Below are positions 15,386 through 18,475 of a DNA stretch of 43,357 bases, in pieces (the first letter of the stretch is position 1; each line of letters starts with the position of its first letter). The DNA comes from Alphaproteobacteria bacterium (GTDB lineage: Bacteria; Pseudomonadota; Alphaproteobacteria; Micropepsales; Micropepsaceae): the NCBI GenBank assembly GCA_947475445.1, contig CANJLC010000015.1, forward strand, positions 1 to 43,357, written 5' to 3'. Both the position numbers and the translations under genes were made by a program. The notes under the pieces are model-generated. The model did not search any database and had not been told where the DNA came from. It was given only the letters and a program-made list of their open reading frames with translations.

Positions 15386-15886
15386 ATGTGCGAGTGCGCG
15401 ACACGGCGTGAGATAATGGGATTTGCCGCCGGTGCGGCCATGACGGGACTGGCGGGAACCAGCGCCCAGGCGGCGGGCGTCACCGCCCTGGCCATCACCT
15501 GCATTGACTACCGGCTGGTGGATGACACGGTGCGGTTCTTTGATGGCCAAAAACTGACCAATGACTATGACCAGGTTTCGCTGGCTGGCGCTTCGCTGGC
15601 CGCGGTGTCGGACAAATTTCCGCAATCCAATGCCGCCTTCTGGAACCATATCGGCATCGCAAAACAGCTGCACCACATCAAGAAAGTGATCGTCGTGGAT
15701 CACCGCGACTGCGGCACCTTCAAGGTTGCCTATGGCAAGGATTACAAGGGCACGGGCGCAGCCGAACTGGCGCAGCACAAGCAGGTGATGACCCAGGTCA
15801 AGGCGAAGCTCGCCAAGGAGTATCCCGACCTGGCGTCGGAATTCTACCTGATGGATGTGAGCGGAAAGACCGAACGCGTCCTCTGA
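15386..15886 (+). CDS. Beta-carbonic anhydrase homologue with Tat-type signal
   Basis: The 166-residue protein opens with a twin-arginine-like leader (TRREIMGFAAGAA, ending AQA-AG). The beta-carbonic-anhydrase signature CxDxR is present as C39-I-D41-Y-R43, and HxxC as H106-R-D-C109, so all expected zinc ligands and the Asp-Arg dyad are there. Such enzymes interconvert CO2 and bicarbonate. Here the Tat signal suggests a folded zinc protein sent to the periplasm. It is shorter than classical beta enzymes at the C-terminus, so activity is uncertain. It sits downstream of a terminator-bearing leader and is convergent with the gene at 15908. Confidence 0.8.
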   Translation: MCECATRREIMGFAAGAAMTGLAGTSAQAAGVTALAITCIDYRLVDDTVRFFDGQKLTNDYDQVSLAGASLAAVSDKFPQSNAAFWNHIGIAKQLHHIKKVIVVDHRDCGTFKVAYGKDYKGTGAAELAQHKQVMTQVKAKLAKEYPDLASEFYLMDVSGKTERVL

Positions 15887-15907: not shown

Positions 15908-17017
15908 TCAGAAGAATATCCTGGCGTCGAGCTGGAACAGCTTCTGGCCGATTTCGCCCGATGGAACGCCCACGGCGATATATTGGCCGCGGCGCGAATG
16001 CATCAGCAGGCCTTCACCGGTGATGCGCAGCCAGTCGGTGCCCTGCCAGGAAAGACTTAAGGTCATGGCGCGGCCATCTTCGCTCATGGCGGGCGGCGCA
16101 GCGGCGACATGGCGGGTCTGGAACACATCCATGCGTGCGCTGGCGCGCCAGTCCTCAAAACCGGCCTCGGTCAAATCATAACTGGCGAGCAGGAAGGCCG
16201 ACTGGAATTTGGTGTCACTGATGAGGCCCGGGCGTACCACCACGATGGTCTGGCCCTGCAGGCCCTGCGCGATCAGCACCAGGGAATCGATCTGGGTGCG
16301 AAAGCCATAGGCATAGAAGCGCGTGTCCCAGGCCGTGTCGCGCACCGACTTGGCGGCGGGGTTGCCTTCATTGTCGTAACGCAGCACCGACAGTTTGCCG
16401 ATATTGGCCATCTGCCAGGTCAGCCCGGCATACCAACCGATGCGGTCGTCAATCTCGTCGAACATGCCGGTGCGGCCCGGCACGGGCGCGCGGAAGGTGC
16501 GCAAGCTGGCGTCCGGCAGGCGGACGCGCTCGAACAGGCCGGTGGGCCGGTCACCCATGGCCCAGCCGCGATCCGCCATCAGGATGCCGGCTTCGTCGTT
16601 GCAGCAAGTGAAAGCGCCGATGACGGAGAAGGTGCCGGCCTTGTCGGTGCGCCAGCGCAGCGTGCCTTCGCTGCCGATGGTGCGCAGCTCTTCGCCGATC
16701 CAGCTGTTGATGGCGGAATAGGTCAGCGTGTAGGGGCTGTCCCAGCCCAGATCATCATTCTCGAGGCTGATGGTGGGGAAGAAGGCGCCGCCCTTTACCG
16801 ACCAGCTTACAGGCCCGTCACTTTGCGGGTGCAGGAAGAAATAGGCTTCCAGCGCGTCCACGCCGCTGACCTGGTCCTGGTCGGCGCGGGCCACGGCGAT
16901 GGCGGACAGATCGTCGGTCAGGTTCAGGGTGCCCTGGACGATGCCCGAAAAGCGCATGTCGCCCGTGTCGCCGCCATTGCGGTATTTGCCAAGGCCGCCG
17001 CTCAGCCAGTCGGTCAT
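15908..17017 (-). CDS. Outer-membrane beta-barrel-like protein, frameshifted from its signal peptide
   Basis: The 369-residue frame is rich in alternating aromatic/polar strands (WSVKGGAFFPT, GTLRWRTDKAGTFSVIGAF, GWYAGLTWQMANIGKLSVLRY) and ends LDARIFF. Such a C-terminal phenylalanine is typical of outer-membrane barrels. No signal peptide lies in this frame. The frame stays open upstream (IDFEFAGYADARIIAEPK...) to a CG dinucleotide tract at 17072-17084. A good signal peptide lies beyond it in another frame, starting at ATG 17150. One extra CG unit would join them with an ARA cleavage site. It is either phase-variable (off), a recent pseudogene or an assembly error. The specific family is not recognised. 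Confidence 0.75.
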   Translation of the reverse strand: MTDWLSGGLGKYRNGGDTGDMRFSGIVQGTLNLTDDLSAIAVARADQDQVSGVDALEAYFFLHPQSDGPVSWSVKGGAFFPTISLENDDLGWDSPYTLTYSAINSWIGEELRTIGSEGTLRWRTDKAGTFSVIGAFTCCNDEAGILMADRGWAMGDRPTGLFERVRLPDASLRTFRAPVPGRTGMFDEIDDRIGWYAGLTWQMANIGKLSVLRYDNEGNPAAKSVRDTAWDTRFYAYGFRTQIDSLVLIAQGLQGQTIVVVRPGLISDTKFQSAFLLASYDLTEAGFEDWRASARMDVFQTRHVAAAPPAMSEDGRAMTLSLSWQGTDWLRITGEGLLMHSRRGQYIAVGVPSGEIGQKLFQLDARIFF

Positions 17018-17150
17018 TTTCGGTTCGGCGATGATGCGCGCATCGGCATAGCCGGCGAATTCGAAATCGATCGCGCGCGCGCGCCAGCGGCGCAGCGATC
17101 ATGATCGCAGCCAGCGCAACTCCACGAACTGTGGATGTGCCCCTGAACAT
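17018..17150 (-). other. Signal-peptide-encoding 5' part of the outer-membrane protein gene
   Basis: From ATG 17150 the frame reads MFRGTSTVRGVALAAIMIAAPLA then Arg-Ala repeats, a classical signal peptide. It then enters the CG tract and leaves the frame of the barrel. It belongs to the gene at 15908-17017; the intact gene would be 15908-17150. Confidence 0.7.
17072..17084 (-). repeat. CG dinucleotide tract, (CG)6C
   Basis: Six CG units plus one C lie inside the signal-peptide codons. With seven units the reading frame would be continuous from 17150 to 15908. Short tandem tracts inside 5' coding regions of surface proteins are classic slipped-strand phase-variation sites, although six dinucleotides is short for that. 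Confidence 0.7.

Positions 17151-17245: not shown

Positions 17246-18475
<1,230 letters not shown>

Follow-up and report, generated by a model that had tools for sequence, protein, structure and literature searches.

A predicted outer-membrane porin gene in the window is parted from its signal peptide at a short alternating CG run, and the likeliest reading, probably the right one if only just, is a recent frameshift by slippage in a porin gene that a small-genome lineage can dispense with. The window is the whole stretch of DNA analysed here, 43,357 nucleotides that make up contig C15 of a 2.17 Mb genome in 29 contigs; this genome is 98.4% complete and appears to have been assembled from a metagenome. 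No second genome of the window species was found, and the nearest homologue of the porin, in genome G009 of the window's genus, is 67% identical.

A porin gene split at a CG run

The porin gene begins on the minus strand, at 17085..17150, with its start codon and signal-peptide part (MFRGTSTVRGVALAAIMIAAPL...), and the closest relative, G009, starts at the matching place (MFR...). As judged by eye, ATG 17150 opens a signal peptide. Next to this part lies the 13-nt alternating CG run (17072..17084, minus strand), the point at which the signal-peptide frame and the barrel frame, one base apart, separate. The barrel frame is open from stop to stop at 15908..17098 on the minus strand; its predicted fold is that of an OprO/OprP/DcaP-like 16-strand porin, and it carries no signal peptide of its own. 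Within it, a 369-codon frame beginning with ATG spans 15908..17017 (minus strand). The gene as it stands would yield the product of a 110-codon frame from ATG 17150 (16818..17150, minus strand), in which the signal peptide is followed by out-of-frame sequence. The run lies inside the porin gene, and gain or loss of units in it shifts the frame, as in a contingency locus.

A preliminary description of this DNA had reported ATG 17150, the CG run at 17072-17084 and the 369-codon frame at 15908-17017. All three are present, with coordinates and arithmetic correct. Its further claims, that the two frames are offset by one base and that ARA stands just before the mature start in the barrel frame, agree with our analysis, in which the barrel frame around the cleavage site reads ARA IDFEFA GYAD. 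Between 17098 and ATG 17017 the barrel frame contains no ATG, GTG or TTG. We rejected a barrel start at the internal ATG 17017: its product would be short of the signal peptide and of strand 1 in the structure model, and relatives begin at the signal peptide.

Upstream of the porin, at 17246..18460 on the minus strand, lies an aminotransferase gene (class I and II; Pfam PF00155, 1.6e-87) that marks the orthologous place in other genomes. The neighbour on the other side is a convergent carbonic-anhydrase-like gene on the plus strand (15386..15886; Pfam PF20393, 4.3e-10).

Fold and family of the barrel

A structure model built from four sequences contains 16 strands, at a pLDDT of only 58 and a pTM of 0.62. 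Its best structural matches are OprO and OprP (VIA-align Z 22.0, 22.0) and DcaP (Z 21.4), over 297-300 residues, and a Foldseek ranking placed general porins, OmpT of Vibrio among them, at the top. The 16-strand barrel is common to the window model, OprO and OprP of Pseudomonas and DcaP of Acinetobacter; identity between the window protein and these three is, however, only 10-12%, and general porins follow close behind at Z 20-21. The window protein has no Pfam match, and so does not reach the Porin_O_P cut-off, nor has it an NCBIfam match; a sequence search of solved structures gave no meaningful match. L010, a more distant relative, scores barely above the Porin_O_P cut-off (21.4 bits vs 20.9). 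By its modelled fold the window protein is likely an OprO/OprP/DcaP-like porin rather than a proven member of that family.

Relatives carry both parts in one frame

The barrel was found in 38 of 96 genomes of the order and in 31 of 69 of the genus, with homologues in 37 genomes besides that of the window. At the DNA level, the signal peptide and barrel are in a single frame in 28 of the 31 relatives that could be read uncut by a contig end. As relatives hold both parts in one frame, the two frames represent one gene and did not arise by chance, and the preliminary description was right to see in them a single outer-membrane barrel gene that the CG run parts from its signal peptide. Copies cut by a contig end (G001, G090, G108 and a third G093 copy) were dropped before counting. 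The DNA-level count also leaves out seven match rows (a second G093 copy, G091, G082, G072, two of G114, and G113), for which the match table shows no stop, and L018, L019 and L020 were taken as the same as G096, G009 and G008 and counted once.

The junction itself can be followed among these relatives. In G009 (ALA), G096 (ARA), G093 (ARA) and G067 (AQA), the cleavage site is followed by six residues and then by a G-Y/F-x-D motif, with the same spacing as in the window's barrel frame; the spacers between cleavage site and motif are longer in other relatives. Fifteen of 20 stretches in one set, and 3 of 9 in a second, have the aminotransferase gene upstream of the porin and on its strand; the distance exceeds 1 kb in some of them, and some stretches end before that gene could show. 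From porin start to aminotransferase stop there are 95 nt in the window vs 80 nt in G009. The carbonic-anhydrase-like gene also adjoins the porin in G009, G107, G104, G015 and G006. Intact orthologues are therefore found at the same place at which the frame is broken in the window, as for a pseudogene made by a recent frameshift.

The three remaining relatives are broken in other ways. The porin of G103 (L037) contains two TAG codons, while that of G015 (L040) has several frame changes, one of them at a short tandem duplication just past the signal peptide. In G061 (L059), which belongs to another genus, only the 3' part of the porin is present, behind an unrelated open frame, and the 5' part was not found. 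No porin copy was found in 38 of the 69 genomes of the genus, some of which are incomplete.

Constraint on the barrel

The window copy keeps 68 of the 68 residues at columns that are invariant in 18 other aligned intact copies, and its end branch is 0.30 vs 0.32 for its sister. In a Tajima-type count with 17 outgroups, chi-square stayed below 3 in 13; it exceeded 3 with G086, G102, G031 and G062, the excess changes being on the sister side. The broken copies of G103 and G015 were omitted from the tree and the invariance test. With invariant residues kept and no acceleration of its branch, the barrel either remains under normal constraint or was so until very recent times. The break is either recent or not real. 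The absence of decay is equally expected from a working gene with an assembly error or from a switch gene in its OFF state.

The CG run in its genomic context

For 43 kb such a run is unusual; on the scale of the window genome it is not. In the 2.17 Mb of the window genome the 13-mer is seen twice, vs about eight times expected from the dinucleotide frequencies of the window, and the second copy, at C1 108429, sits in a long open frame that it leaves unbroken. Within the window, the 9-mer occurs 7 times vs a shuffle mean of 9.33 and the 10-mer 2 times vs 1.48, which is not above shuffles. The 13-mer is present in 67 of the 69 genomes of the genus, so such runs are commonplace.

A run of this kind is, in contrast, not a feature of the gene in relatives. 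We measured the longest CG run in the gene of 19 orthologues, 18 of them whole and that of G103 up to its first stop. None has a run comparable to that of the window, and the tract is not one that is conserved and variable across these copies; the longest, 9 nt, is in G094, about 40 nt past its signal peptide.

A scan of 343 kb of the window genome revealed three dinucleotide runs of six units, all CG and including that of the window, and none longer. There was no tri-, tetra- or pentanucleotide tract at thresholds of 6, 4 and 4 units. The cut-offs of PMC5953494 (cited, like the papers below, from an excerpt) are reached only by one G9 and by two six-base units in three copies. With so few tracts at published cut-offs in the sampled 343 kb, we rejected the idea of a repeat-rich genome. 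A mutator background was likewise rejected: a 992-codon open frame of the genome encodes a MutS_V domain, and one of 617 codons a DNA_mis_repair (MutL) domain.

Frame changes elsewhere in the genome

A coding-frame screen of 300 kb of the window genome called 99 same-strand frame changes, two of which had a distant stop. In a control with 60 simulated mid-gene shifts, the distant-stop criterion found 39 of 60, and some frame change was called near 55 of 60. The screen is blind near gene starts and missed both the porin break and a break at a G9 run. Within the window five changes were called, the porin break included, and none had a distant stop; for the porin break, this follows from the blindness near gene starts. 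Indels are uncommon mid-gene in the window genome, and two breaks at repeats are seen.

The second of these, at C1 294035 (L057), was found by eye: a truncated ATPase gene is frame-broken at a G9 run in its start. At C1 295126 (L057) the frame of this same gene, export-ATPase-like by Pfam (ATP-synt_ab and part of T3SS_ATPase_C), is joined at its 3' end to another frame that has no start codon and no Pfam match above cut-off. The ATPase-like frame we take to be FliI; flagellin or FlgL, our presumed name for the second frame, is not borne out by Pfam. The ATPase-like gene of C1 is either a decayed flagellar-type gene or a product of assembly faults. Elsewhere on C1, at 247106 (L055), a short gene, presumably cupin-like, has a frame change that may be a recent lesion or an error. 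The changes at C1 295126 and C1 247106 are the two distant-stop calls of the screen.

Origin of the break

How might the break have arisen? In the reading that we favour, the product of the gene at 15908-17150 would be an outer-membrane porin of 16 strands whose signal peptide can be cleaved, and a chance CG run would fall on the signal-peptide cleavage site. Replication slippage would then have altered the length of the run and put the barrel out of frame; with the barrel out of frame, we propose, no exported barrel is made by the window genome. The porin would be dispensable in the genus, where it may have been lost or broken repeatedly, and here it would have gone from a genome that is small, is also without its former flagellar export gate and bears other gene scars. 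We infer a real mutation as opposed to an assembly slip; slippage was probably its cause, and selection as a switch presumably played no part in it. That short CG runs can mutate is seen in CGCGCGCG near hisD3052, where heterocyclic amines cause a CG deletion (PMC8284014). At this site in the Salmonella Ames strains, a short alternating CG run loses a unit and the frame is shifted, as in the window (PMC8284014). The hisD3052 losses differ in that heterocyclic amines bring them about, in a test strain whose excision repair is defective, and that neither a switch nor a signal peptide is involved.

The preliminary description had instead proposed a phase switch, in which the CG run is a contingency tract whose gain or loss of units toggles the porin and the assembled majority is OFF. 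We regard this as rather unlikely. The precedent on which it drew is sound, as signal-peptide repeats do switch a surface protein elsewhere: oipA of Helicobacter pylori encodes an outer-membrane protein and has, within its signal-peptide part, a CT dinucleotide run that sets the gene in or out of frame, like the window run (PMC10564699). The window run sits in a signal peptide as the oipA run does, its frame offset can be crossed by unit changes, the barrel is fully kept, and a porin would be a plausible target of phages or toxic solutes. However, position, kept barrel and frame offset fit a slippage mutation and an assembly slip as well as a switch, and it is for a switch here that the claim falls short. 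Whereas oipA tracts vary among many strains, the window offers one length in one genome, made of CG and not CT, with no comparable run in the measured orthologues, whose longest CG run is 9 nt. Six units fall below the cut-off of 8 at which a Neisseria study calls a dinucleotide tract phase-variable, although its table lists tracts from 6 (PMC5953494). According to the excerpt, dinucleotide tracts switch genes in other Gram-negatives, and repeat number was unchanged in Neisseria. Phase variation is by definition reversible switching at a detectable rate (PMC11868660). Also against a switch are a 13-mer that is rarer in the genome than expected and not over-represented, a 343 kb scan with no dinucleotide tract above six units and few tracts at cut-offs, the encoded MutS_V and MutL-type domains, and a porin that is broken in other ways in other lineages. 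The bolder form of the proposal appears less probable still: a small-genome alphaproteobacterium, outside the well-studied host-adapted pathogens, would toggle a porin via a very short CG run at the cleavage site, with most sampled cells OFF, perhaps as an escape from phages. In part of the literature, searched with few terms, no title among the matches listed concerned repeat switching of a porin in an alphaproteobacterium. If a switch were true, with mixed tract lengths in the reads, it would be unusual repeat-driven porin switching in an alphaproteobacterium, by a tract shorter than present scans seek.

An assembly or sequencing slip, by which a CG run miscounted in the assembly would hide a gene that is intact in the organism, is unlikely, though the most probable of the rival readings. 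It would explain a barrel frame without sign of decay, and the second frame break of the window genome is also at a repeat, the G9 run. A 13-nt run is, however, short enough for ordinary short reads to span. Of the two distant-stop calls that the 300 kb screen gave, one is a two-gene join, with no indel. The lesion at the G9 run may be real decay, since that gene is truncated as well. Breaks at repeats are accounted for equally by slippage in genes under decay and by slips of assembly. Many reported pseudogenes stem from assembly, in a study whose excerpt places metagenome-assembled genomes outside its scope (PMC11017572), and singleton frame breaks confirmed by relatives are expected to be sequencing errors and not true indels (PMC3711429); this one large survey put single-genome frame breaks down to errors or indel mutations. 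What counts against a fixed mutation is that the break is known from one genome only. A fixed mutation or read error had been named in the preliminary description as its alternative, and this fits better than the switch. Recoding, by which ribosomes or RNA polymerase would shift frame at the run so that the full protein is made anyway, is very improbable. The barrel kept under constraint would suit it, but to our knowledge a CG run is not among the usual slippery sequences. We rejected recoding at the run, as the frame does not change at that site in any of the 31 relatives read, whereas the recoding class of PMC3711429 demands a conserved site. Next to no probability attaches to an old pseudogene or a chance open frame: although the frame is broken, all 68 invariant residues are kept, the branch shows no acceleration, and homologues exist in 37 other genomes.

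Probable loss in a small genome

If the break is an ordinary slippage frameshift, as we favour, it adds one case to the surface genes that small genomes have lost, and it warns against taking a short signal-peptide repeat, by itself, for a switch. The window genome appears to be one of a lineage that is losing genes. FlhA is absent from it and present in 48 of the 69 genomes of the genus. FlhA was not found in the other 21 of the 69, which include 12 of the 14 genomes below 2.7 Mb; some of these assemblies are incomplete. Flagella seem to have been lost together with genome size in the genus. G103 and G015, whose porins are broken, are small genomes without FlhA. Three small genomes without FlhA, G006, G025 and G107, speak against a simple link, as their porin is intact.
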